DNA of 64,000 nt from assembly GCF_018141405.1 (NCBI RefSeq), contig NZ_CP058648.1, positions 1,007,001-1,071,000 on the forward strand, written 5' to 3'. The translations under genes were made by a program, and so were the position numbers. Numbering within the stretch: position 1 is the stretch's first letter; each line of letters begins with the position of its first letter. The notes below the pieces were generated by a model. That model searched no databases and was not told where the DNA came from. It was given only the letters and a program-made list of their open reading frames with translations. The DNA comes from Serpentinicella alkaliphila (lineage in GTDB: Bacteria; Bacillota; Clostridia; Peptostreptococcales; Natronincolaceae). Below, in pieces: positions 908 through 19,443 of this stretch.

Positions 908-1946
908 ACTTTTCCACTTGTTCTCTTTTTGTCCAAAACTCCTTGACCCTAGCTTTAGCAGTAGCGACATATTGAGGATTAGCGTCTGAGCCATAGACCT
1001 TACGCCTCCCAGCTAACAGCGTTGCTATGATGTATGAAGCACTTCCCATACAGACATCCATGACCGTGTCACCCTCATTGCTAAACGCCTTTACAAGTTC
1101 AACATCTACACTTTGTTGATAAGGGTGTAGGCCGGTATCTTCTGCGACACGAGGAGGAGGTATGTGTAGGTCAGGAATATACGCAAGGTTTTTATCTGGT
1201 TCACCTTTAGTGTAGTGTAGGATGGCTTTCCATTTTGGGATTACCCTCCGACTATGTACTAATTGAGTGCCGTTGGGGGTCATATAAGCATGTGTCCAAT
1301 TATATGTCAGATATTCCCCGAGAGCTTGCATAGCCTGAGGCAAGAGCAGTTGACCACATACCACAACCAAAGACCCCGTTGGTTTTAAGAGTTTAGCACT
1401 TATACGCCCAAGGTGTGGATACAGGTCAGCATACTCTGCCTTGTACATAAAATCGACTAAGATTAAATCTATGGATTCGGGTTTTATCTGGTCGTAGTCA
1501 CTCTCATTGCGTAAATCAGCCACGAACAACTTCACAGCGTCCTCAGTTACCGTTATGCTTGGGTTCTTATTCAATTCCCGTTGTTCTTTCCTTAGAATTG
1601 TCAGAGCAAGCCGTGGGCTTTTCGTGACACCCTCTAGCTCTACCAACTTGTCTAGTACGCCCGGAGTTCTGAGGCATTTAAGGGTTCTATCAGATAACTT
1701 CTTCTTTTCTAAAATATCTTTGTGCCTTTGAACCCAAGGGTGCTGCGTCCAATCCTCAGTATTCACGGGCATAGAGTCCAACTTGGACTCTCCAAACAGT
1801 TCTAATCTATACTTAGCTATGCTTGTAGGACTACACCCTAAAAGCGTAGCTATCTTTTTATTTGAAAGACCTTGATTTCTTCTTAAAGTGCTTTTAATCA
1901 GCTCTTGTCTGTCTTTGCGGGATATTTGCTTTATCTGCTTAGCCAT
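906..1946 (-). CDS. Site-specific DNA methyltransferase homologue with altered motifs
   Basis: 346 residues. The N-terminus (about 15-52) has a helix-turn-helix-like segment (NKKIATLLGCSPTSIAKY). Residues 130-340 have the fold order of phage-type N4/N6 DNA methyltransferases: a segment like KPxGSLVVVCGQ (189-199), then a C-terminal block beginning GDTVMDV and ending YGSDAN (292-323), the usual SAM-binding region. Two key motifs differ from the family norm. The catalytic DPPY position reads DFMY (165-168), and the SAM loop, normally DPFxGxGT, reads DVCMGSAS (297-304). It may be inactive or act as a DNA-binding protein. Located in prophage-like DNA, convergent with the gene at 407. Fold assignment is fairly sure; activity is doubtful. 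Confidence 0.75.
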   Translation of the reverse strand: MAKQIKQISRKDRQELIKSTLRRNQGLSNKKIATLLGCSPTSIAKYRLELFGESKLDSMPVNTEDWTQHPWVQRHKDILEKKKLSDRTLKCLRTPGVLDKLVELEGVTKSPRLALTILRKEQRELNKNPSITVTEDAVKLFVADLRNESDYDQIKPESIDLILVDFMYKAEYADLYPHLGRISAKLLKPTGSLVVVCGQLLLPQAMQALGEYLTYNWTHAYMTPNGTQLVHSRRVIPKWKAILHYTKGEPDKNLAYIPDLHIPPPRVAEDTGLHPYQQSVDVELVKAFSNEGDTVMDVCMGSASYIIATLLAGRRKVYGSDANPQYVATAKARVKEFWTKREQVEK

Positions 1947-2047
1947 TACAGGTCACCTCCATTAACTATGCCTATGATATTTTACCATAGGCCGATGAAA
2001 ATTTCTTCATATTTAAGTGCCTACGAGTCAAGCCCTTCATAAATCGA

Positions 2048-2068
2048 CTATAAATACACGATTTATAG
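2048..2068. promoter_or_regulatory. Inverted repeat before the small element gene
   Basis: CTATAAAT (2048-2055) and ATTTATAG (2061-2068) form a perfect 8-bp dyad with a 5-nt gap. An overlapping dyad ATAAATCG/CGATTTAT shares the same bases. It sits directly before the ribosome binding site of the 47-residue gene and between divergent transcripts, a position suited to a phage-type repressor operator. Confidence 0.4.
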
Positions 2069-2081
2069 GGGGTTTATGATT

Positions 2082-2225
2082 ATGACAAACAGCACTGATA
2101 GGAAAGCAAGGGAAGCAAAGAGGGATGAATTTATAAATATTATGATAGAACTGATAGAAAAGTATGGTGAAGAGGTTATTGCTAAGATAGAAAATGAGAA
2201 TAAGGATACTGCAAAGACTGCGTAA
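2082..2225 (+). CDS. Small charged protein (47 aa), element-borne
   Basis: An ORF of 47 residues starting MTNSTDRKAREAKRDEF and ending KDTAKTA. I chose the ATG at 2082 because GGGGG at 2068-2072 gives a 9-nt spacing; an earlier ATG at 2076 is too close. It is very rich in Lys and Glu and predicted helical, without Cys or membrane segments. It lies 81 nt upstream of the serine recombinase and could be a recombinase-associated or regulatory protein. Family not recognised. Confidence 0.5.
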   Translation: MTNSTDRKAREAKRDEFINIMIELIEKYGEEVIAKIENENKDTAKTA

Positions 2226-2306
2226 GTAGTCTTTTTTTATGTTCAAATTCGGTTTGTCCTATTATTAAGCACGGTTTAATGATAGAATTGGTTATGAGGT
2301 GAAGAT

Positions 2307-3980
2307 ATGGAAGACAAACTGATAAAAAATGTTGTTATATATACAAGGGTATCGACAGAGGAACAAACTGAGGGGTTTTCTCTTCAAAACCAGCTTGATA
2401 GTCTTTTGACATACTGCAAGGCATTTGATTATAAAGTGGTTGGCACATACACCGATGCTGGTATTTCAGGCAAGAGTACCGAAAACAGGGCTCAATATCA
2501 AGATATGTTGTCATACATTGACTCTAATCCAACTGCTGTAGATGCTATACTTATCTGGAAACTCTCACGAATAAGTAGAAAACTCAATGATTTGACTCAT
2601 TTAATGACATATCTTGAAAAGAAGGACATTGTTCTGATTAGTAAAGAAGACGGTATAAATACAGGTACAGCAACTGGGCGATTTATGGCTCAGATTGTAG
2701 GCGCAGTAAGTGAGATGGAACGTGATAACATTGTTTCAAATGCTCGTGCTGGAATGCTCAAAAGAGCTGAATTAGGACATTGGGGTGGCGGTATCATACT
2801 CGGGTATGATAATATTGACAAAAAACTTGTAAAGAATGATGATGAGGCTGAAATAGTTAAGACCATATTTGACCTATATGTAAATAAAGACTATGGCTAT
2901 AGCCTTATTTGCAAGCATTTGAACACACGTAATATGAAAACTAAAAAGGGAAACACTTGGGCTGTTGCCACGGTTAGAACAGTTTTAGATAACCCTACAT
3001 ATGCTGGATATATCAAATGGGGTTTGCGTGAAAATTGGAGTAACAAAAGAAGAAAAGGGATTACTGATAAATTTACAATGGTGAAATCTGATATTCATGA
3101 ACCTATCATATCAGAGGAGCTTTGGCAACAAACAAGAGCGAAGAGAGAAAAAGTAGGCAAAGCAAATCCGAAGGTTTGGAAAGGCGATTGGCTTTTATCT
3201 GGGCTACCAAAATGTCCTGCTTGTGGTGCAAGTATGGTTGCTCATAGGACAAAGAGAAAGAGCAAAAAGCATCCAGAAGGGATTATGTATAGGTACTACA
3301 TTTGCTCACAATATAGTAACAAAGATACGAGTGTATGTCTTCCGAATTTGGTAGAGGCCGAAACCATTGAAAAATATACTGTTGATAAGCTTTTAGAGTT
3401 TGTTTCAAACCCAGACTTAATTAAAGCTATAGCAGAACAAGCCGAAAAGCGTCAAAGGCCTGATAATTCGGCTCTTCTAAAGGATATGGAGAGACTCCAA
3501 AAGTCACTTAAAGAACTTAAACATAAAGAAAGTTTATATTATTCCTATTTAGGTGACCTCAACAAACTCGAGGTCCTCAAAGAAGATAAGATTATAGCAA
3601 TGATTGGTGACTTGAACACTAAAATGGCTGATATAGAAGCTGAAATTGATGATGTAAATTACCAACTCAAAGCGGTTGAAAGAGAAACTCAAACCTTTGA
3701 GCAGATAGCTCTAGCACTTAAACACTTTAAGGTTTTATTTGAACTGGCAACATATGAAGAAAGGAAACGACTGATTCATTCAGTCATCAAAGAGATAAGA
3801 ATAAAGAAGTCGGATAACTTCAAAGAGCGAGTGGTCGATAAAATCATTTTGGCATTTAGTGAAGCGGATGTTTTGGAATACCTAGATACTTCCGCTAAAA
3901 AAGAGAACTTAAAACCGTATGTCCCTAACTATGATACGGTGAACCGTACCATAAGTAACGGCGGTTTTATTGAATATTAG
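2307..3980 (+). CDS. Large serine recombinase (site-specific integrase)
   Basis: 557 residues. The resolvase catalytic domain occupies about 1-150: YTRVSTEEQ, with the nucleophile Ser in the RVS motif, and later an SRKLNDLTH-like arginine segment. It is followed by the recombinase domain (about 160-280), a zinc ribbon with CPACGASM and a downstream CSQY...C pair (about 305-345), and a long C-terminal coiled coil (about 385-475). These enzymes integrate and excise phages and conjugative elements between attP and attB. The ribosome binding site GAGGTGA lies 7 nt before the ATG. The last residues (NRTISNGGFIEY) come from a dispersed repeat rather than from the conserved protein. Its place at the edge of foreign DNA fits an integrase next to an attachment site. 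Confidence 0.9.
   Translation: MEDKLIKNVVIYTRVSTEEQTEGFSLQNQLDSLLTYCKAFDYKVVGTYTDAGISGKSTENRAQYQDMLSYIDSNPTAVDAILIWKLSRISRKLNDLTHLMTYLEKKDIVLISKEDGINTGTATGRFMAQIVGAVSEMERDNIVSNARAGMLKRAELGHWGGGIILGYDNIDKKLVKNDDEAEIVKTIFDLYVNKDYGYSLICKHLNTRNMKTKKGNTWAVATVRTVLDNPTYAGYIKWGLRENWSNKRRKGITDKFTMVKSDIHEPIISEELWQQTRAKREKVGKANPKVWKGDWLLSGLPKCPACGASMVAHRTKRKSKKHPEGIMYRYYICSQYSNKDTSVCLPNLVEAETIEKYTVDKLLEFVSNPDLIKAIAEQAEKRQRPDNSALLKDMERLQKSLKELKHKESLYYSYLGDLNKLEVLKEDKIIAMIGDLNTKMADIEAEIDDVNYQLKAVERETQTFEQIALALKHFKVLFELATYEERKRLIHSVIKEIRIKKSDNFKERVVDKIILAFSEADVLEYLDTSAKKENLKPYVPNYDTVNRTISNGGFIEY
3911..3968 (+). repeat. Dispersed ~55-bp inverted repeat, copy A
   Basis: Outer arms AAAACCG and CGGTTTT flank an inner dyad ACGGT-GA-ACCGT. 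It overlaps the 3' end of the recombinase gene and encodes its last residues. Related copies start near 7441, 10205, 11570 (half), 14391, 16757 and 19641. Confidence 0.75.
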
Positions 3981-4034
3981 GAATTGCAATAGACGAGGCA
4001 TATTTGCAGGTATAAACACAATGCAAAGGATTGA

Positions 4035-4193
4035 TTTGATGTTTATATATGTGTTCCATTATCTAAGGGTCTAGATTATGTAGTGGTAGGTACTCATAAT
4101 GGAGAAAAAGAATTATTTGATAAAATGTTGGAAGAAATAAGAACAAGTATAAGAGATAGCCATATTAATATATTATATCGACCAAAAACTTAA
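4035..4193 (+). pseudogene. Gene fragment without start, after the recombinase
   Basis: An open frame of 52 residues ends at a TAA (4191-4193) and contains KGLDYVVVGTHNGEKELFDK followed by a charged helix and LYRPKT. No start codon or ribosome binding site is visible, and the frame is closed upstream at 4032. It looks like the 3' remnant of a host gene cut by integration of the element on the left. The family is not recognised. Confidence 0.35.
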
Positions 4194-4304
4194 TTATAAA
4201 AACATATAGTGCATTGGAATAAGAAGATAAAAGCTCTTAACCAATGCATTTATTGTTAAAACGATAAAAACTAAAACAAGAAATCAAAAACATTCATTAA
4301 TTTC

Positions 4305-4333
4305 TTGACAAAAACTGTTTACAGATGTAAACT
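4305..4333 (+). promoter_or_regulatory. Promoter of the blaI-like operon
   Basis: TTGACA (4305-4310) and TAAACT (4328-4333) are spaced 17 bp apart, 43 nt upstream of the ATG at 4376. The spacer and -10 region are covered by the first BlaI-type operator, so repressor binding would block RNA polymerase. Confidence 0.7.
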
Positions 4334-4358
4334 GAGCTTAGCGTTTACACATGTAAAC
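4317..4358 (+). promoter_or_regulatory. Twin BlaI/MecI-type operators
   Basis: Two near-identical 16-bp dyads, GTTTACAGATGTAAAC (4317-4332) and GTTTACACATGTAAAC (4343-4358), carry the TACAnATGTA core known for BlaI/MecI repressors. Their centres are 26 bp apart. One covers the -10 region and the other the early transcript just before the ribosome binding site. Confidence 0.85.
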
Positions 4359-4375
4359 AAAAGGAGGAAATAATC

Positions 4376-4771
4376 ATGAAAAGAGCTCCAAATATAACAG
4401 ATGCAGAGTGGGAAGTGATGAAGCTTATATGGAATAATAATCCTAGCACATCTGAACAAATAATAAGTGCTTTGTCTCCTAAGATGGGATGGTCAGCACA
4501 AACCATTAAGACGCTAATAAATAGATTGCTCAAAAAAGGGATAATAGATTTTGAAAAGGAAGGTCGTATTTATAAATACTATCCACTGGTTCCTAGAGAA
4601 GATTACATTAAAACTGAAAATAGATCCTTTCTTGAAAAAGTATATGATGGAGCCTTGAGCATGCTTGTTTCTAATTTTTTAGAGGAAGAATCCTTATCTG
4701 AGAATGAAATCGAAAAAATTCAGAAGATCCTTGAAAAGAAAAAACACGAAAACCAGCACAATAAAAAATAA
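4376..4771 (+). CDS. BlaI/MecI-family winged-helix repressor
   Basis: 131 residues, the usual length for the family. The N-terminus (ITDAEWEVMKLIW, then SAQTIKTLINRLLKKGII) is the characteristic BlaI winged helix, and FEKEGRIYKYYPLV forms the wing. The C-terminal half is the dimerisation region, cleaved in classical systems when the BlaR1 protease is triggered. The ribosome binding site AAGGAGG precedes the ATG by 8 nt. The gene lies behind twin operators, so it is probably autoregulated, and it is followed after 42 nt by an M56 sensor protease gene in the same direction. Target genes beyond this operon cannot be seen here. Confidence 0.9.
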   Translation: MKRAPNITDAEWEVMKLIWNNNPSTSEQIISALSPKMGWSAQTIKTLINRLLKKGIIDFEKEGRIYKYYPLVPREDYIKTENRSFLEKVYDGALSMLVSNFLEEESLSENEIEKIQKILEKKKHENQHNKK

Positions 4772-4813
4772 AATTGTTGTAAGTATAATTATGAAAAAGA
4801 GAGGATACAGGAG

Positions 4814-7063
4814 ATGGATATTTTAGAGATTGTTTTTTTGCATGTGCTATATTCATCGTTGACTACAAGCATTTTTATAATAGCATATTTTCTTGTTAAA
4901 AAGTCCTATTTCCAACGAATTGGACCACGATATCATCATACCTTATGGATGATACTGATTATCAGATTATTGATACCTATCAACATTGAAAGTTCTATTA
5001 GCATTTTAAATCTACTTCCACAGAATAATTTAGTAATCCTAGAAACCTATGTTGAAAAAAATCTTTCTAAAACACTTACTGCCGAGGAGAATGCTCTAGC
5101 TTATAGAACTTGGGATTTTGATAAAAATCAAGAGACAAATTATGAGCTTTATATTGAGGAAAAGCCCATATACGATTACTTATCAGAATATGATTCTGCA
5201 GAGCAGGGGGAAAGCATAATAGCTAAAGAGTCAAGTGGGGAGCTCATAAAAGTATCTGCTAGAATATGGTTGTTTGGAGTGTTGTTATTCACACTATTCT
5301 TTGGTAGCACCTTATTTATGTTTGAAGGCAAATACAAAATGTTAAGAATACATTCAACACCTGAGCTACAGTCTTTAGTAGAAGAAAGCAGAAGAAAATT
5401 GAATATAAGAAAGCCTATTCCAGTCTATTTAAGTGATTATATAGGAAGTCCATGTATTCGAGGAGTCTTTAATCCATGTATTTATCTGCCAACAGATATT
5501 TCTACTAAGACTGACCATACTGAACTTCAGTATATAATCCTGCATGAATCGGCTCATTACAAGAGAAAAGATTTAATTTATAATTTGATTACTTTTATTG
5601 CAGTCTTAATTCACTGGTTTAATCCTATCATATGGTTTGCAATTAAGTATATTAGGCATGATAGGGAGATTGCCTGTGATGCGTATGTGATGGAGATAAT
5701 AGAAGAAGAAGAAATCATACCCTATGGGATGACCATTATTAATTCAGCTAAGGGATTTAGGAGCAATTATAATAAGATTTATTCAGTAAGCTTTTATGAA
5801 GCAAGCAGCTTACTGGAAAGGAGAATAAAAATGATAGAAAAGTTCAAAAAAGGATCCTTTAAAATATCTATAGTAGCTATTATTTTTTGCATAATCATAG
5901 GGGGAATGGTTCTGACTAACCCATCTGGTCTTGATAACACAAATCTTATAAGTACAAATATAGCTGTAAAGGATGATGCTACACAGGGATTAGAACAAGA
6001 GAATTTGTTGAGTAAGAAAAAGGAAGAAGAACCTAACTATAAAGATATTATTAAAGATATGCTTGTACTCATTGATCCTGGGCATGGGGGAGATGACTAT
6101 GGGGCGGTTTATACCATCCCTAATTTTGGTGAGGTAAAGGAGAAGAATCTAAGCCTTGAAATATCACTTTTACTATATAATATGTTAAGAGAATCAGGAG
6201 TCAATGCTGAATTGACTCGTCAAGAGGATGCTGGAGTACCCTTGGAGAATAGAATAGAATTGGTGAACCAGCTTAATCCTTCTCTATTTGTAAGCATTCA
6301 CAATAATTTTGGGGGAGCGTCTGAAAGTGATATGTTGGCTCTGCTGTACTCTTCAACAGATAGAGATACAAGCATAATAACAGGGGAAAGAGTGGCTCAA
6401 ATTATACATAAAGAGCTGATTAATGCAACCAAGAATAAAACCAGTGAAATAACAGAAATACCTAATAGACTGAAATTTAGTGGTATTAAAATACCGGCAG
6501 TCATTATTGAACCAGCCTATATCGTAAACCCTTCTGATACCAAAAACATTTTGATAGAAGAATTTAGAAAGAAAGTTGCAGGCTCTTTACACGATGGTAT
6601 TATAAAAGTTTTGAAAGAGATGGCTGTGGATGCACAAGAATTAATTAAGCAGAGTGAAGAAATAGGACCTGATGGCAAAGGGCAATGGCCAGTGCCAGGG
6701 TATAATAGAATTGCTACTCCCTATGGAGAAAGAATACATCCTATTTCAAAGGATAAAGTATTTTATACAGGAATACAGGTTCCAGCTCCTAGAGGAGAAA
6801 AGATTGTTGCTTTTAAAGATGGAAAGGTGGTTAAGTCCGAGGAATCAAAGGAGTATGGAAAAGTAATTAAGATTGACCATGGAAATGGCTTGGAGACGCT
6901 ATATGCTAATGCATCACATCATAATGTATCTGTTGGAGATGAAGTAAAAGAAGGGCAAAAGATTGCAGAAATAGGTAGCACTGGGTATGCAACGGGAAAT
7001 TATCTTCATTTTGAGGTGTGGGTTAATGGAAAACAAGTAAATCCTACTGATTATTTGAGGTAA
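4814..7063 (+). CDS. BlaR1-like M56 sensor protease fused to amidase_3 and degenerate M23
   Basis: 749 residues in three parts. Residues 1-370 are a BlaR1/MecR1-type M56 metalloprotease: several membrane segments, the zinc motif HESAH (244-248) and a downstream REIACDA glutamate. Residues 415-605 are an N-acetylmuramoyl-L-alanine amidase (amidase_3) with all expected ligands: H424 in DPGHGG, E443, H496 in SIHNN and E566 in VIIEPAY. Residues 625-749 are an M23/LytM domain that has lost most zinc ligands: Y651 and Q655 in YTGIQ, N699 in LYAN, Y730 in YLHFE. The usual penicillin-binding sensor is absent. The protein probably senses or trims peptidoglycan and signals to the adjacent BlaI-type repressor. 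Domain calls are strong; the signal is inferred. Confidence 0.85.
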   Translation: MDILEIVFLHVLYSSLTTSIFIIAYFLVKKSYFQRIGPRYHHTLWMILIIRLLIPINIESSISILNLLPQNNLVILETYVEKNLSKTLTAEENALAYRTWDFDKNQETNYELYIEEKPIYDYLSEYDSAEQGESIIAKESSGELIKVSARIWLFGVLLFTLFFGSTLFMFEGKYKMLRIHSTPELQSLVEESRRKLNIRKPIPVYLSDYIGSPCIRGVFNPCIYLPTDISTKTDHTELQYIILHESAHYKRKDLIYNLITFIAVLIHWFNPIIWFAIKYIRHDREIACDAYVMEIIEEEEIIPYGMTIINSAKGFRSNYNKIYSVSFYEASSLLERRIKMIEKFKKGSFKISIVAIIFCIIIGGMVLTNPSGLDNTNLISTNIAVKDDATQGLEQENLLSKKKEEEPNYKDIIKDMLVLIDPGHGGDDYGAVYTIPNFGEVKEKNLSLEISLLLYNMLRESGVNAELTRQEDAGVPLENRIELVNQLNPSLFVSIHNNFGGASESDMLALLYSSTDRDTSIITGERVAQIIHKELINATKNKTSEITEIPNRLKFSGIKIPAVIIEPAYIVNPSDTKNILIEEFRKKVAGSLHDGIIKVLKEMAVDAQELIKQSEEIGPDGKGQWPVPGYNRIATPYGERIHPISKDKVFYTGIQVPAPRGEKIVAFKDGKVVKSEESKEYGKVIKIDHGNGLETLYANASHHNVSVGDEVKEGQKIAEIGSTGYATGNYLHFEVWVNGKQVNPTDYLR

Positions 7064-7305: not shown

Positions 7306-7500
7306 ATGAAACCCGCAAATGTTACAACTGGGGTTATCTTAAAGGCTATAATGCATTTAAGAAGGAACAAGCTGACAGATGCTTCTGTATTAGATTTAGG
7401 TTCGGCTGTCCCTATAGATTATAACTTAGAAAAATATATAAAAACCGCCATTATACCCGTTACGGAGAACCGTACCATAAGTAATGGCGGTTTTCTCTGA
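7306..7500 (+). CDS. Small ORF running through a dispersed repeat (possible remnant)
   Basis: 64 codons starting MKPANVTTGVILKAIMHLRR. No clear ribosome binding site precedes the ATG. The last part, from about residue 46, is encoded by repeat copy B and ends ENRTISNGGFL, matching the tail of the serine recombinase at 3980. The first 45 residues may be the truncated end of an older gene that the repeat entered. No family recognised. Confidence 0.3.
   Translation: MKPANVTTGVILKAIMHLRRNKLTDASVLDLGSAVPIDYNLEKYIKTAIIPVTENRTISNGGFL
7441..7494. repeat. Dispersed inverted repeat, copy B (best preserved)
   Basis: AAAACCGCCATTA (7441-7453) pairs perfectly with TAATGGCGGTTTT (7482-7494). The inner part has TACGG-AGAA-CCGTA. 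The 13-bp arms and T run could act as a terminator in either direction. Confidence 0.8.
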
Positions 7501-7607
7501 AATTAACTATTATCGATACATAGTCAGATTTAAAATCAAACAGAGTATATTTGATATTAGGTTAATTATAATTAAGCAAGACATAACCGTACAAGGTAAT
7601 ATGATAA

Positions 7608-8051: not shown

Positions 8052-9356
8052 CTACTCTATAGGAATTACTATCTTTTCATTTTCATATATCTCGAAGATA
8101 TAGGAATTCTCCAATATGATTACATATTCCTTATCTTCTGAAAGTTTGGAATATAAAAGTGTAGCTTCTATACGAGAGCCAACTTTTTTATTAGTAATAG
8201 TTGACTTTGGTTCAATGATGTCGCCAGTTTCATCATAGATTACAAACGTTGGTCCATTATCGGGTGAAACCAAATCAAATATAAAGGATATCAAGGAACC
8301 ATCTTTAGAATCTTCAATTTTACTAATGGATATAGTGGTTCCAGAATCCCGAGTTAAGACAATAGGTAGTGTGTTAGGCTTTATCTTTGCAGAGATTTCT
8401 TTATTAGAATCACTAAAGATTCGCCTATATGGTATTAATGTTAGGGACGAGGGTGGGGTATCTACTGGATCACATTCAATAGAAGCCATATAATTTCCAT
8501 TACTGTCGATATTGTAATCTATACCTATGAAAGGTATTTCTGTACCGTCCTGATTGTAAACTATAAAACCATCCCTTAAAGGATCATCTGGAAACTTAGG
8601 AGCAGGTAGTTCAGCTGAACCCAATAGGGAAATTCTTGTGCTAATAGGTGTAAATGCTGCCTTGTTAATTACCACTTTACCCTCTTGAAAATCTATTATT
8701 TCATTTAAATTAACAATCTTACTAGCGTTGTTTATAGATTCTTTGTTTAAATCTAAATGGAAAGTCCAATTACCATTAATATCATTAATCGTTTTAATTA
8801 CATATTTCAAACCAAATTCAGCAGGAAGATTATTAGTATTTATCATATGATGTATAGACATATTATAGGTATGTTGATCTATGAATTCCCCATAACCAGA
8901 CCCAGAGTTAAAAACTAATGTGTCATCCACAAATCCTTCTATAACTCCAACTGCAAGATCATTATATGAATCAGATTTCTCAAAGGCTGTATAATTCTTT
9001 ACAGTCATACTTAATATAAGATTATTTTCATCTAAGATAGATTCATTTATAGTTACCGTAATACCTTTCGATTGTACAGAGGTATTATTAATAACAACAT
9101 ACTCCGAGAGATCCTTGCCTGAAGGGTAGAAGCTAAATAAGTGATATATATCATTCAGCCTATAACCATTTGCATAGGCTCCAGCAATAGATACAATGGT
9201 GAACACCAGTAGTAAAGATGCTACAGTCATGAATTTCTTCAAATAAAAAACTCTTTTATTCGGTAGCTTATTAACAAAATCATCTAATTTTTTAGAGGTA
9301 CTATCTGGCATAATAAAATCTTCTTTTACTATCTTTTCTCTTAATTTATCATTCAT
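8052..9356 (-). CDS. DUF4179-type membrane protein, probable anti-sigma factor
   Basis: 434 residues from the chosen start. I use the ATG at 9356 (MNDKLREK) because GAGGAGG lies 9 nt before it; a longer frame starts at 9374. It has a short cytosolic part (about 1-40), one membrane helix (FMTVASLLLVFTIVSIAGAY, about 48-67), then an extracytoplasmic DUF4179-like region (SVQSKGITVTINESILDENN) and further beta-rich sequence. The gene starts 1 nt after the stop of an ECF sigma factor gene, so it is almost certainly the cognate membrane anti-sigma factor. The signal sensed is unknown. Confidence 0.8.
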   Translation of the reverse strand: MNDKLREKIVKEDFIMPDSTSKKLDDFVNKLPNKRVFYLKKFMTVASLLLVFTIVSIAGAYANGYRLNDIYHLFSFYPSGKDLSEYVVINNTSVQSKGITVTINESILDENNLILSMTVKNYTAFEKSDSYNDLAVGVIEGFVDDTLVFNSGSGYGEFIDQHTYNMSIHHMINTNNLPAEFGLKYVIKTINDINGNWTFHLDLNKESINNASKIVNLNEIIDFQEGKVVINKAAFTPISTRISLLGSAELPAPKFPDDPLRDGFIVYNQDGTEIPFIGIDYNIDSNGNYMASIECDPVDTPPSSLTLIPYRRIFSDSNKEISAKIKPNTLPIVLTRDSGTTISISKIEDSKDGSLISFIFDLVSPDNGPTFVIYDETGDIIEPKSTITNKKVGSRIEATLLYSKLSEDKEYVIILENSYIFEIYENEKIVIPIE

Positions 9357-9357
9357 T

Positions 9358-9900
9358 TTAAATATCCTCCTCAATACTCAAAATATCATAAAGCTTGTTC
9401 CTTGCGCGCGAAAGCCTTGATTTTACTGTTCCCTCTGGGATATTAAGAAGTTTTGATATAGACTTTATCGATAAATCTTCATAGTAATAAAGGACTGTGA
9501 CAAGTCTTAGGTCATCATCTAGATTTAAAATTGCATTCTTTATATCTATATCATTACAAATCTCATTAGGAGTAGATGTGCAATTTGTTAAAGTATCTAG
9601 GGGGAGGTGTGTCTTTCTTTTAAGGACATTATAGCTTTCATTGATAACAATACGTATAAACCAAGACTTAAATAGATCGGCATCTTTTAATTTGATAATG
9701 CTTTTGTAGGCTTTAATAGCAGCTTCTTGTAGGGCATCCTCAATATCGCTATCTTTTTTGAGAATAGAGCGTGATACACGATAAGAAGTATTATAGTACT
9801 CCTTAAACAAAATAGAAAATGCTGATTTATTACCTTGAATAGCTTTTATAACAGTAAGGCTCGTAGCGGAACCTAATTGACATTGTTCTGTGAATTCCAA
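9358..9900 (-). CDS. ECF sigma-70 family factor
   Basis: 180 residues with region 2 (KEYYNTSYRVSRSILKKDSDIEDALQEA, about 29-57) and region 4 (VLYYYEDLSIKSISKLLNIPEGTVKSRLSRAR, about 135-170). It directs RNA polymerase to stress or envelope promoters when released by its anti-sigma partner. The start is TTG at 9900, with AAGGAGG 8 nt upstream. It is co-transcribed with the DUF4179 gene. A perfect 20-bp palindrome lies 31 nt upstream and may be its control site. Confidence 0.9.
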   Translation of the reverse strand: MEFTEQCQLGSATSLTVIKAIQGNKSAFSILFKEYYNTSYRVSRSILKKDSDIEDALQEAAIKAYKSIIKLKDADLFKSWFIRIVINESYNVLKRKTHLPLDTLTNCTSTPNEICNDIDIKNAILNLDDDLRLVTVLYYYEDLSIKSISKLLNIPEGTVKSRLSRARNKLYDILSIEEDI

Positions 9901-14727: not shown

Positions 14728-16467
14728 TTAAAGCAGCTTAATTACATCTTCTAACTCTTCAGATAAAGTTTTTGCAAGCTCAAAATTGGTATCTTTTAAA
14801 GCCAACTCTATACTCGTTTCAATTAATTTTTTCTTTTGTTCAACTTCTAAATAGTCCCTATCAAAATGATTAGCATATATCTTTCTTCTAAATTTCTTCA
14901 TACTCATTTTTCTGAGAGTCATATTTTCAATTATCAGAACATAATCCATACAATTAGATATAAAATAGTAATCATGTGAAATGGTTAATATGGCGCCTTT
15001 ATAGTTTTCTATGGCTTTTTCGAGAGCTATTTGTGAATATGTATCTAAATGACTTGTTGGTTCATCCAGAAGCAACATATTTGCTTTACTAACAGCAATT
15101 TTAGCTAATTGAAGCATATTTTTCTCACCACCAGATAAGTACTGGATTTTTTGATGAAGCATTTTTCTGTCAAAACCATAGTTTGAAATATAGGATATAA
15201 CTGCTGTTGAATTTCTAAGACCGGCATCTAATAACTCTTCGAGTATTGTATTAGACTCATTTAGTGTTTCACCTTGATTCTGAGATAAATATGCCATTTC
15301 TATATTAGGATTAATTTCAATTGAATCATTGTTTTTAAAAATAGCCCTCAACAAAGTGGTTTTTCCTGTACCATTTGAACCGATGAGAGCTACTTTATCA
15401 GTAGATTTAATCTCGAAATTAACATTTTCTAACAGTACCTCTTCATCATAGACAACACTAAAATCATTAACTTTTAAAGCGATGGTTTCTTCGACCTCAT
15501 TATCCGTATGAAAACTGATATTCGGCTGCTTAATATCAACGAAAGGTTCTTTAATACGTCTTGCTTCTAATCTTTCTTGAATTTTAACTCTAGCCTTTAG
15601 AGCCTTTCCCCTAGAAGCTTCAGAATTGTGAGTTGCAATAGACCTTAATTTATCGATCAACATAGCGTTTCTCTCAATTTCTTCTGTATCGGCCATAGCC
15701 AATTCTTGCAACTCAATTTTAGTTTGAAGTAATGAAAAATTATAATCGATAAATCTTCCATCAAACTCTTGGAGTTCCTTGTTTTCAAGGTGCAAAATTT
15801 TGTTAAAACAATGATTCAATAAATATCTGTTGTGGGTAATAATTAATAGAGTTCCTTTATGGGAATCAATTAGGTTTTTAAGAGAATCAATGTTTTCAAA
15901 GTCTAAGAATACATCTGGTTCATCCATAATTATTAAGTCTGGGATACTGAGCATTACCTTAATCACTTGTATAAGTTTGAATTCTCCACCACTAAGCTCA
16001 GATACCATTAGATCTTTATGCTTAGTTAGGTTTGCAAGATTCAGTTTTTTATTAATCATGCTTTCAAAATCATCCCCACCAATTGCATTAAATGCGTCTA
16101 AAGCAAGCTGGTATTTGTCTAGTAAAGCATCAATATCCGAAGATGTTTCCATTTGAGAACAAATGTATGTTATTTCATTTTGCAACTTGAAAAATTCTTC
16201 TCCTATAAATTCATAAACTGTAGTATCGTGTATTTTTTCTAGTTGTGAGAACTGACTTACATATCCAATTCTATACTGAGGATCTATTTCTAACTTGCCA
16301 TCAAACATATATTTTTCTGGATCCATAAGTATATCTATTAATGTACTTTTTCCACTGCCGTTTGTTCCTATAAAAGCGCAATGTTGACCATCTTCTAGTG
16401 TAAATGAAATATTCTTATAGATATCTTTTTGCGGGAACGAGTAGGACAAGTTATCAACTTTTATCAT
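14728..16467 (-). CDS. ABC-F ATPase, ribosome-protection type
   Basis: 579 residues from the chosen ATG at 16467 (MIKVDNLSYSF), with GAGAGG 7 nt upstream. It has two ATPase domains without membrane segments. Walker A motifs are GTNGSGKST and GSNGTGKTT, the signatures LSGGEFKL and LSGGEKNM, and the Walker B motifs IIMDEPDVFLD and LLLDEPTSHLD. A linker of about 80 charged residues lies between them. ABC-F proteins act on the ribosome; those of this form often give resistance to lincosamides, pleuromutilins or streptogramins. A terminator hairpin lies in the leader 24 nt before the start, as in antibiotic-induced members. Drug range is not readable from sequence. Confidence 0.88.
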   Translation of the reverse strand: MIKVDNLSYSFPQKDIYKNISFTLEDGQHCAFIGTNGSGKSTLIDILMDPEKYMFDGKLEIDPQYRIGYVSQFSQLEKIHDTTVYEFIGEEFFKLQNEITYICSQMETSSDIDALLDKYQLALDAFNAIGGDDFESMINKKLNLANLTKHKDLMVSELSGGEFKLIQVIKVMLSIPDLIIMDEPDVFLDFENIDSLKNLIDSHKGTLLIITHNRYLLNHCFNKILHLENKELQEFDGRFIDYNFSLLQTKIELQELAMADTEEIERNAMLIDKLRSIATHNSEASRGKALKARVKIQERLEARRIKEPFVDIKQPNISFHTDNEVEETIALKVNDFSVVYDEEVLLENVNFEIKSTDKVALIGSNGTGKTTLLRAIFKNNDSIEINPNIEMAYLSQNQGETLNESNTILEELLDAGLRNSTAVISYISNYGFDRKMLHQKIQYLSGGEKNMLQLAKIAVSKANMLLLDEPTSHLDTYSQIALEKAIENYKGAILTISHDYYFISNCMDYVLIIENMTLRKMSMKKFRRKIYANHFDRDYLEVEQKKKLIETSIELALKDTNFELAKTLSEELEDVIKLL

Positions 16468-16490
16468 ATTATTACCTCTCTTTATCATTC

Positions 16491-16518
16491 AAAAAGAGCC
16501 TTCTAAAATAAGCTCTTT
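16491..16518 (-). terminator. Leader attenuator of the ABC-F gene
   Basis: On the minus strand AAAGAGC and GCTCTTT form a 7-bp stem with a T run, inside the 5' leader and just before the ribosome binding site. A terminator between promoter and start implies regulated read-through. Confidence 0.65.
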
Positions 16519-16593
16519 ATTATATAATATTGCCAATAGAAATTCTTAAATTCAATATTATATAACAATGTAATTATTTTGACTTAAGTGGAT

Positions 16594-16622
16594 AGTATAA
16601 CACTTTCTTTCTCTAATTTCAA
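16594..16622 (-). promoter_or_regulatory. Promoter of the ABC-F gene
   Basis: On the minus strand TTGAAA (16622-16617) and TATACT (16599-16594) are 17 bp apart. Predicted transcription starts near 16587, giving a leader of about 120 nt that contains the attenuator and a possible 21-codon frame starting with TTG, whose own ribosome binding site is not clear. Confidence 0.6.
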
Positions 16623-16756
16623 TTATCTAATATAGAAATTTTAAGAAAATGAACATCATGACCACACATAGAGGAGGGTATGATTAAGGGCGTAGATATC
16701 CAAGGGGTATATATGCAATGGAAGTTTGACTTGTTAATTATACAGAAAACTTTAGT

Positions 16757-16810
16757 AAAAACCGCTGATACAAAGGTGCGGCGAGTCTTATCATAAATAA
16801 CTGCTGGTTT
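16757..16810. repeat. Dispersed inverted repeat, copy F
   Basis: AAAAACCGCTGATACAAAGG, then a diverged centre and TTATCATAAATAACTGCTGG. Right arm ends GGTTT. Confidence 0.6.
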
Positions 16811-17199
16811 GTTTTAAAAACTAAATATCTTAAAAATTCTTTCCTATTACTAGTTACTATCTTTCGATACATCTGTTTGTTATAATATACATAAAAATAA
16901 GAATGTACTGTGATACTAAAATAAAAATAGGCGCTTAACTAATTGGAGGTAGTAGCAACGGGGGGTGTTTACAAACACCAAGGTATATTCGAGTTTGCAA
17001 CAAGTGAGTTTCACAGGATGCATTTATTTATTGGGCGCTTATTGGATTGAATTACCCAAAATGTTCCATATATAAATTTCAAAGGGCTTTATTAAGTTAA
17101 TATTAGAAAAATCATTAAATCAAAATCATAAATTGAATAAATTTGGTGTTGAAGATAACTGCAAACTTTTATAATTTATAGGTGTTGGGGAGGAAAAAA
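16811..17199. other. Leader region of the U32 gene
   Basis: About 390 nt without a gene. It holds a compact hairpin (GGTGTT/AACACC, 16964-16979) in a locally G-rich patch, and GGCGCTT occurs twice as a direct repeat (16930 and 17034). The patch is unlike the AT-rich flanks and may be a leader element or an integration trace. No known riboswitch consensus recognised. Confidence 0.35.
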
Positions 17200-19443
17200 A
17201 TGACTGAATTATTAGCACCAGCAGGAAATATGGAAGCTTTAAAAGCTGCAATTTCTAATGGTTGTGATGCAATATACTTAGGAATGCAAAAATTTGGTGC
17301 ACGTGCATACTCATCTAATTTTGATTTAGAATCGTTAAAAGAGGCTGTTACGTATGCGCACCTGAGAAATGTTAAAATCTATGTTACAATGAATACCATC
17401 GTTTTTGAAAACGAAGTTGAAGAGATGAAAGCCCAGATGCACGAATTAAATGAAATCGGTGTTGATGGCATAATCGTTCAGGATCTGGCTGCTTTCGATT
17501 ATATAGTTAAAAACTTTCTTGATATGGAAGCACATTGTTCAACGCAAATGGGAATAGACGATTTAGACGGAACTTTATTATTTAAAGAACTTGGTGCTAA
17601 AAGAGTTGTTCTGTCCCGTGAGGTTGAGATTGAAAAAGTAAAAGAGATAAAAAGAATAGCTAAAATACCTTTAGAAATTTTTGTTCACGGTGCTTTATGT
17701 GTATCTTATTCTGGAAACTGTCTAATGTCTGGGTTAATCGGCTATCGGAGCGGAAATCGCGGAAGATGTGTTGGTTCATGCCGTAAGGAGTATGAATTAA
17801 TTGATAAGACAACAGATACATCTTTAGGGAAAAACTATATTCTATCTACTAAGGACTTAAACACAATCGATTATATCAATGATTTAAAAGAAATTGATTC
17901 TTTAAAAATAGAAGGTCGAATGAAAGAGCCTGCGTATGTTGCTAATGTTGTATCAAGATATCGCATGGCATTAGATAATAAAATAACCGAAGAAGATAAA
18001 GAAAAACTGAACAAAACATTTAATAGAACATTTACTAAAGGATATCTGTTTTACGAGGATACGAAAGATATTACAAACATCTTAAGACCTAATAACTGTG
18101 GATATGAAATTGGTGAAATTAGCAAGGTACTTAAAGACATGTATGAAATAACACTGACACGTACTTTAAATCAAAACGATATAATCAGAATAAGTCATAA
18201 CAATGAAGATGTTAATTTAACTGTTGTAAAACTGTACGATAAAGATGGCAATCTAATCAACAAAGCAGATGATATCTGCTATATAAAAATCAAAGAAAAG
18301 TTGTCTAAGGGTGATTCAGTATATATATCGAAGGATTATTTCTATTACAAAGTGTTAGAATCATCACTGGAAAAAGAATTTAAGCGTTTCAACCTAGACA
18401 TTAGAGTGCATGCATATCCAGATTCAAAGCTTATCATAGATGCTGAGGGCTTAGGCTTTAATTATTTATATGAAAGCGAGGAAATATTAGGTGAAGCAAT
18501 TAATAATCCAACAACAAAAGACCAGATAATAAAGCAATTTTCAAGATTAAATGATACTATATTCGAACTTAATCATATAGAGTTTGAGGAATGCAATGCA
18601 TTTATTCCAGCTAAACAGTTAAATGCAGCAAGAAGAGATATTGTACAGGGATTATATGAATTAAAGCTTAACAGCAAAAAGAAAAGAACCAAGCCTTTGG
18701 AAGCTAAAGAAAAAATAAGCTTTACTCCTAAAAAACCATACCTTACTGCCACTGTAACGACTAAGGAACAGTATGATGCTTGCATGAGCTGTGGCATTAA
18801 GGAAATCTATTTTGAAAACGTTGTTAGAAGAAATCAGAATGATTATAAGGAAAAAGAAGGGCAGCTACTAATCGGAGGATATGGCGGAATTTATCACTAC
18901 AGAGAAACTAATCCTTTTGTTACTGACTATTCTCTAAATGTTGTTAATGCAACTAGTTGCTATGAATTATATAAATTAAGTACAAAACGAGTCACTTTAT
19001 CTTATGAATTGAATAAGAGACAAATTGAAGATTTAATTAATGCTTATTATGAAGAAAATGACGGGTATCCTGCACTAGAAATGATTGTATATGGTAAGGC
19101 TCCTTTGTTATTTACAAAATATTGTCCGCTGAAAAAAATGAATCAATGCGGTATTTGCAGAACGAAGACCTATGAGTTAAAAGATGAGCACGGAACGTTC
19201 CCTATTATTGCTCATGATGATTGTACAACGACTATCCTGAATGGGAAGACCCTTAATCTTTTAGATGAGCTACAAAACATCAAAGGAATCGAGGCATTCA
19301 GACTAAACTTCACAGTTGAATCAAAAGAGGAGGTTGTGAAAACCATTAATAAGGCCTTAGGCAAATTAAATGGCTCAATGAATAATGCTGTCTTTAATAA
19401 GGAAACAGACACAAGAGGACATTTTAATAAAGAGATTTTGTAG
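17200..19443 (+). CDS. Peptidase U32-family protein (RNA hydroxylase-like)
   Basis: 747 residues. I use the ATG at 17200 because GGGGAGG lies 6 nt before it; the frame opens 18 nt earlier. The N-terminal half is a U32 domain (ELLAPAGNMEALKAAISNG, IYLGMQKFGARAY) with the Cys cluster CVSYSGNC and GRCVGSCRKEY near 165-200. Further Cys residues lie in CPLKKMNQCGIC near the C-terminus. Relatives such as RlhA and TrhP hydroxylate 23S rRNA or tRNA, using prephenate and an iron-sulfur cluster; which RNA is modified here is unknown. The length suits the RlhA-like type with an extra C-terminal domain. The stop codon directly abuts a 3' tRNA fragment, which suggests the gene arrived on an element. Confidence 0.85.
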   Translation: MTELLAPAGNMEALKAAISNGCDAIYLGMQKFGARAYSSNFDLESLKEAVTYAHLRNVKIYVTMNTIVFENEVEEMKAQMHELNEIGVDGIIVQDLAAFDYIVKNFLDMEAHCSTQMGIDDLDGTLLFKELGAKRVVLSREVEIEKVKEIKRIAKIPLEIFVHGALCVSYSGNCLMSGLIGYRSGNRGRCVGSCRKEYELIDKTTDTSLGKNYILSTKDLNTIDYINDLKEIDSLKIEGRMKEPAYVANVVSRYRMALDNKITEEDKEKLNKTFNRTFTKGYLFYEDTKDITNILRPNNCGYEIGEISKVLKDMYEITLTRTLNQNDIIRISHNNEDVNLTVVKLYDKDGNLINKADDICYIKIKEKLSKGDSVYISKDYFYYKVLESSLEKEFKRFNLDIRVHAYPDSKLIIDAEGLGFNYLYESEEILGEAINNPTTKDQIIKQFSRLNDTIFELNHIEFEECNAFIPAKQLNAARRDIVQGLYELKLNSKKKRTKPLEAKEKISFTPKKPYLTATVTTKEQYDACMSCGIKEIYFENVVRRNQNDYKEKEGQLLIGGYGGIYHYRETNPFVTDYSLNVVNATSCYELYKLSTKRVTLSYELNKRQIEDLINAYYEENDGYPALEMIVYGKAPLLFTKYCPLKKMNQCGICRTKTYELKDEHGTFPIIAHDDCTTTILNGKTLNLLDELQNIKGIEAFRLNFTVESKEEVVKTINKALGKLNGSMNNAVFNKETDTRGHFNKEIL

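Follow-up and report, generated by a model that had tools for sequence, protein, structure and literature searches.

A BlaI repressor and an M56 protease with amidase_3 and M23 domains in an rlmH-linked cassette of Serpentinicella alkaliphila: a putative wall-reading variant of the BlaI-BlaR1 switch

The window analysed here is a stretch of 64,000 nucleotides of the Serpentinicella alkaliphila genome (contig NZ_CP058648.1, positions 1,007,001 to 1,071,000), in which a BlaI/MecI-family repressor gene adjoins the gene of a 749-aa protein joining a BlaR1-type M56 membrane protease, an amidase_3 domain and an M23 domain (Table 1). This pairing and the one-frame fusion had been proposed in a sequence-only reading, and both are borne out by the profile matches; on alignment the protease motif HESAH occupies residues 244-248 with H244, E245 and H248 all kept, and the amidase residues H424, E443, H496 and E566 are confirmed. 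A sequencing artefact is excluded as the source of the fusion, because another genus (locus L075 of genome G012) has a full-length homologue, 69% identical, in which all three domains are likewise joined, and a frameshift, the doubt attached to that reading, is thereby answered. The amidase_3 and M23 domains lie C-terminal to the last transmembrane helix, and the fusion protein is the only M56 protein of the 3.26-Mb genome.

Table 1. Features at and around the blaI-receptor pair (window positions unless another locus is named)
Feature	Position	Strand	Basis or remark
Ccr-like large serine recombinase of neighbouring cassette	2307..3980	+	CcrB model 325 bits
rlmH-3'-end-type (att-like) repeat, left cassette boundary	3936..3958	+	overlaps 3' end of recombinase gene
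Sigma-A-type promoter TTGACA-N17-TAAACT of blaI operon	4305..4333	+	sequence; layout common to most homologous blaI genes
Predicted BlaI operator 1, GTTTACAGATGTAAAC, within promoter spacer	4317..4332	.	exact 16-bp palindrome
Predicted BlaI operator 2, GTTTACACATGTAAAC, 26 bp downstream (start to start)	4343..4358	.	exact 16-bp palindrome
BlaI/MecI-family repressor, 131 aa	4376..4771	+	Penicillinase_R PF03965, 2.4e-36
M56-amidase_3-M23 receptor gene, 749 aa	4814..7063	+	single frame, no interruption
Peptidase_M56 (BlaR1-type) membrane protease domain, residues 11-341	4844..5836	+	PF05569, 7.6e-58
Ser326-Phe327 codons, aligned to BlaR1 autocleavage site Ser283-Phe284	5789..5794	+	alignment; predicted site
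Amidase_3 domain, residues 418-597	6065..6604	+	profile match 4e-33
Peptidase_M23/LytM-fold domain, residues 651-744	6764..7045	+	profile match 2.4e-30
Second rlmH-3'-end-type repeat, right boundary of 3.5-kb cassette	7462..7484	+	
ECF sigma + DUF4179 (RsiV-type) gene pair, window	8052-9900		
ECF sigma + DUF4179 (RsiV-type) gene pair, L075	7013-8885		
ECF sigma + DUF4179 (RsiV-type) gene pair, L088	12358-14246		

The only Pfam matches in the C-terminal part of the protein are amidase_3 and M23, and since a penicillin-binding (class D beta-lactamase-like) domain is absent from it, the protein is, judged by its domains, not BlaR1 in the strict sense; the NCBIfam model blaR1_generic ends at residue 368 with 160 bits against a cut-off of 400. 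The copper repressor CopY was considered as the identity of BlaI and rejected, because CopY_TcrY scored 116 bits against a cut-off of 122 and the partner gene encodes an M56 protease. In the AlphaFold model the protease core, amidase and M23 domains are confident (mean pLDDT 80.6), and the domain arrangement is uncertain (pTM 0.48), so an amidase-M23 docking drawn from the model was dropped; the extracellular loop at roughly residues 60-145, which in BlaR1 touches the sensor, is mostly disordered or of low confidence, and together with the pTM this makes a receptor-loop contact unreadable from the model. Structural matches comprise BlaR1 (8exs, Z 17.8, over the protease part only, residues 7-335), amidases at Z 27 (4rn7, Z 27.1) and LytM/M23 proteins including EnvC at Z about 21.

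The mechanism of BlaR1 has been worked out by cryo-EM, and the sites of its autocleavage, Ser283-Phe284, and of BlaI/MecI cleavage, Asn101-Phe102, are known (PMC9834060). The repressor of the window carries at the latter site, by MecI alignment, the predicted N100-F101, and the predicted autocleavage dipeptide of the receptor likewise aligns (Table 1). Both operators of the blaI promoter, which the earlier reading had pointed out, are exact GTTTACANNTGTAAAC palindromes, one inside and one after the promoter, and this layout, with a spacing of mostly 26 bp, is conserved upstream of most homologous blaI genes; the L087 and L089 promoters, two of those sampled, lack a perfect TACANNTGTA core.

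The genome-wide search suggested with that reading found the exact 16-bp operator in 3.26 Mb at these two sites only and no copy with one mismatch, and the 21 other sites with two mismatches correspond to the control level (46 versus 48 strand-counted matches in all), so the two operators exceed chance expectation. In G012 and G123, the relatives with exact sites that were tested, the exact operator is likewise confined to their own blaI promoter. A third TTTACANNTGTAAA site of the genome, at 2918443, was discarded as a target, lying inside a ribonucleotide-reductase-like ORF and failing the 16-bp pattern, and is taken as chance. The genome holds no beta-lactamase or PBP gene with an exact BlaI operator, though strongly diverged sites may exist, and a sequence search upstream of the neighbouring ECF sigma gene found no BlaI operator. 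There is a precedent in Clostridium thermocellum for a BlaI whose regulon is just its own operon (PMC8457756).

The zinc ligands and the catalytic glutamate of the window amidase are all present. The M23 domain has changed at four active-site positions (H651Y, D655Q, H699N and H730Y) and keeps H732, and H, D, H and H stand at these four positions in 16/16 free M23 domains, in agreement with the ligand loss first read from the sequence; with four active-site residues gone from the alignment, the domain cannot be catalytically active. This loss is specific to the window copy, because the G012 homologue has an intact M23 site, beside a complete amidase catalytic set. Receptors made of M56 and one or two M23 domains, in G005 and G010, also have intact M23 sites, and M56-amidase receptors in G123 and G070 have His or Ser for the catalytic Glu with all zinc ligands kept. 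The division of labour that had been supposed, a degenerate M23 binding peptide stems beside an amidase that cuts, is consequently not supported as a general rule.

Every active-site residue was found in the free-standing proteins sampled (19/19 amidases and 16/16 M23 domains), and catalysis is lost in 3 of 9 M56-fused hydrolase domains versus 0 of 35 free ones (Fisher p=0.006, with few receptors sampled, relatedness ignored and two fused M23s being tandem copies in one protein); active-site loss is thus, as far as these alignments go, a feature of M56-fused hydrolases. In the window M23, four of the seven window-only changes at conserved columns fall on the five active-site residues (p=5e-4), its identity to the G012 sister is 72.5% compared with 66.9% and 72.9% for the other domains, and dN/dS is 0.40 in M23, 0.20 in the amidase domain, the lowest, and 0.31 overall. 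Because the losses concentrate on the active site and the rest is conserved like the other domains, this is the pattern of a domain presumably kept for its fold or for binding, and not of simple decay.

M56-amidase fusions are rare: strict-threshold searches for the fused architecture, as had been advised, gave four M56-amidase proteins including that of the window in 297 genomes of the order and 391 of the class, with all three domains recurring in G012. Plasmid and phage collections held no record covering 80% of the 749-aa protein, a scan of genome contigs gave weak M23-type matches only, and the roughly 370-aa C-terminal domains found in sister receptors matched no Pfam family. Fusions of M56 to M23 were found in the host's family (L088, L089) and in one Subdoligranulum plasmid record; they share this junction with the window protein, but those sampled lack an amidase and keep the M23 active site. 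In a published review M23 co-occurs with amidase or M56 domains in under 1% of M23 matches, and no function is given for these combinations (PMC9662197).

In the M56 tree the receptors of the window, G012 and G123 form one clade (100/98) and the amidase receptor of G070 joins two other G070 receptors with a different C-terminus (98/96), which places amidase-bearing receptors in two positions. The fused M23 domains of the host's family fall among the family's housekeeping M23 proteins, and that of the Subdoligranulum record clusters (100/99) with the immediately adjacent M23 autolysin gene. Since the amidase receptors are split and the fused M23s cluster with free ones, M56 proteases seem to have acquired hydrolase domains on more than one occasion, free and fused domains apparently being drawn from the same pool. 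The Subdoligranulum record (L178, OY725877.1, listed as plasmid) is unannotated and reads BlaI, then M56-M23, apparently split over two frames, then an M23 coiled-coil autolysin. When the window genome (G000) is compared with G012, rlmH is saturated at synonymous sites, but dS reaches only 0.54 in blaI and 0.58 in the receptor gene, which points to horizontal transfer of the pair between the genera.

A point absent from the sequence-only reading is that the pair forms the content of one 3.5-kb cassette, with gene remnants on both sides of it, between copies of the rlmH 3' end. The 45-bp direct repeat 3935-3979 / 7461-7505 includes GAACCGTACCATAAGTAA, the 3' end of rlmH, with rlmH itself (G000:C1:996740-997219) located some 14 kb upstream of the blaI-receptor pair. 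Further repeats follow in the window, giving starts at 3936, 7462, 10229, 14413, 16778 (doubtful) and 19663, and in genomes of the host's family (L126-L140) the repeats after rlmH are forward-only, 53 forward and 0 reverse in 15 regions, spaced about 1-12 kb apart with cargo that varies among genomes. Only one such repeat was met in 17 M56 loci mostly away from rlmH. To judge from this repeat pattern, the whole looks like an SCC-like cassette array, the word "SCC-like" being chosen because the recombinase is only Ccr-like, scoring below the 900-bit cut-off of the CcrB model. No close relative of this recombinase was found within the 15 rlmH-array regions of the family; the closest, 63% identical, is encoded in L173 (G008:C38), some 5 kb past rlmH and with its 3' end beside an rlmH-type repeat as in the window.

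SCC-like composites and tandem cassettes at rlmH are already known across Bacillota, and the bracketing rlmH 3'-end copies, the large serine recombinase and the tandem arrangement are shared with them (PMC10061031), whereas here the recombinase is only Ccr-like and the window cassette itself has neither a recombinase nor a resistance gene. The cassette also has the rlmH-3'-end boundary downstream of rlmH of staphylococcal SCC, but not the ccrA/B/C genes. The mecI-mecR1 pair is cargo of SCCmec, which is integrated at rlmH, and being cargo of an rlmH-integrated cassette is a trait that the window pair shares with it. Compared more closely, the pair has in common with BlaI-BlaR1 and MecI-MecR1 of Staphylococcus and B. 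licheniformis the repressor-M56 gene order, TACANNTGTA operators in the promoter, the HEXXH protease and the aligned Ser-Phe autocleavage and Asn-Phe repressor sites, and it differs in a C-terminus of amidase_3 and M23 in place of the penicillin-binding domain and in a genome with no beta-lactamase or PBP target under an exact operator and no further exact operator. The M56-amidase-M23 receptor is therefore a variant of the BlaI/BlaR1 kind. The earlier proposal of a wall-type module replacing the penicillin sensor in such a relay stands in part: the architecture, M56 site, cleavage dipeptides, operators and missing penicillin-binding domain agree with it, and its sensing step is a matter of likelihood.

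A BlaR1-type proteolytic switch with a receptor built from wall hydrolases is the reading to which we give somewhat better than even credence. BlaI dimers on both operators would repress blaI and the receptor gene, and the amidase/M23 module would engage peptidoglycan outside the membrane, where the amidase may still turn peptidoglycan over and the window M23 could not. An altered wall state or ligand occupancy would then move the transmembrane helices, upon which the M56 site would cleave BlaI at N100-F101, and possibly itself at S326-F327, and so derepress its own operon. The receptor would have arisen by recruitment of wall hydrolases, with catalysis switched off in some lineages, in parallel to the BlaR1 sensor, a kin of class D beta-lactamases, and the pair would travel as a 3.5-kb passenger of the rlmH-linked SCC-like array. 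What we infer from the sequence is that wall binding would serve as the signal and that helix movement, cleavage of BlaI and derepression would follow; this suggests that the switch reads the cell-wall state rather than a drug. A regulon confined to a single operon speaks against the reading, as it leaves a wall signal with no evident gene beyond the pair to switch on. An enzymatic rather than sensory use has to be allowed for, because the window amidase has its full catalytic set and neither active site is lost in the sister.

That use is the chief and a serious rival, although we hold it to be unlikely on balance: the extracellular part would be an effector and not a sensor, namely a membrane-tethered, self-regulated amidase (with an endopeptidase in the sister), its dose set by the BlaI/M56 loop. 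It gains from the complete amidase sets in the window and G012, from the intact M23 of G012, G005 and G010, from a dN/dS that is lowest in the amidase domain (0.20), and from the operators, since with the exact operator confined to its own promoter the receptor protein is the only visible transcriptional output. However, the receptors of G123 and G070 have lost the catalytic Glu, and G123 did so under the same closed operator loop; the window M23 is inactivated, and BlaR1 has its receptor at the corresponding position. Much less probable is a degenerate M23 that activates the adjacent amidase in cis, like the LytM domain of EnvC/NlpD. The best fold matches include the LytM domain of EnvC and an AmiB-EnvC complex, EnvC and NlpD do activate amidases (PMC9662197), and a degenerate M23/LytM fold beside amidase_3 is common to the window and to EnvC/NlpD with AmiA/B. 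Yet the window protein is a single polypeptide with a protease, the M23 of its sister is intact at the active site, some M56-amidase receptors have no M23 at all, and the inserted regulatory helix of E. coli-type enzymes is missing from the window amidase, since it has about 57 residues between the aligned blocks against about 96 in AmiA, the insertion of ~39 residues being absent.

The two remaining alternatives shift the attention away from the hydrolase domains. M56 might mainly cut another protein, for example the adjacent RsiV-like DUF4179 anti-sigma factor, with BlaI merely autoregulating, which we regard as very improbable: in 3/3 genomes checked the M56-M23 gene has an ECF sigma/DUF4179 pair no more than 1.2 kb away, with only three DUF4179 genes in each genome, and in the lysozyme receptor RsiV the segment cut at site 1 is DUF4179 (PMC8844934), but the sigma factors are only 31% alike between pairs, the orientation differs, the pairs have no BlaI operator, none stands beside the G123, G070 and G010 receptors, and ECF pairs occur elsewhere in rlmH arrays, so that cargo clustering may explain the proximity. 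Least credible is a decaying, functionless passenger gene of a mobile cassette, to which the lost M23 active site and the flanking gene remnants would correspond; both ORFs are open with dN/dS of 0.31 overall, the promoter and both operators are perfect, and the loss is limited to active-site positions.

A broader form of the wall-sensing reading, offered tentatively and short of an even chance, is that hydrolases were made receptor domains of BlaR1-type proteases repeatedly, with zinc and fold kept and catalysis sometimes lost, in a wall-sensing pathway of which penicillin sensing would be a derived case and which spread as a small rlmH-array cassette. A literature search, with subscription papers mostly outside its scope, gave no description of the M56-amidase-M23 receptor or of its loss of catalysis. 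BlaR1-like proteases without a recognisable penicillin-binding domain recur in the genomes searched, and for the window receptor a guess at the ligand is available, namely peptidoglycan or fragments of it. A peptidoglycan dipeptide is bound by BlaI/MecI (PMC3305447), and if the reading is true the beta-lactam induction pathway, perhaps already using that dipeptide at BlaI, would be tied to direct reading of the wall, and a second BlaI-M56 pair carried at rlmH would stand after mecI-mecR1 on SCCmec.

Several minor observations concern the arrays and the wider M56 family. ABC-F ATPase-like and U32-peptidase-like genes are 95-96% identical between L131 of G017 (1714-5601), where they come after an rlmH-type repeat, and the window (14728-19443), and since RlmH of the two genera is 73% identical, a recent transfer of an array segment is probable. 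In L092 (11252-13326) the interval separating rlmH from the recombinase contains genes for a C5 cytosine methylase and for an NgoBV-type restriction enzyme, a position that restriction systems also take in many SCC-like elements. At L090 and L091 the M56 proteins reach about 1110 aa; the one scanned, from L090, bears a solute-binding-protein domain (SBP_bac_1/8) outside the membrane, so that here too a BlaR1-type receptor has had its sensor exchanged.
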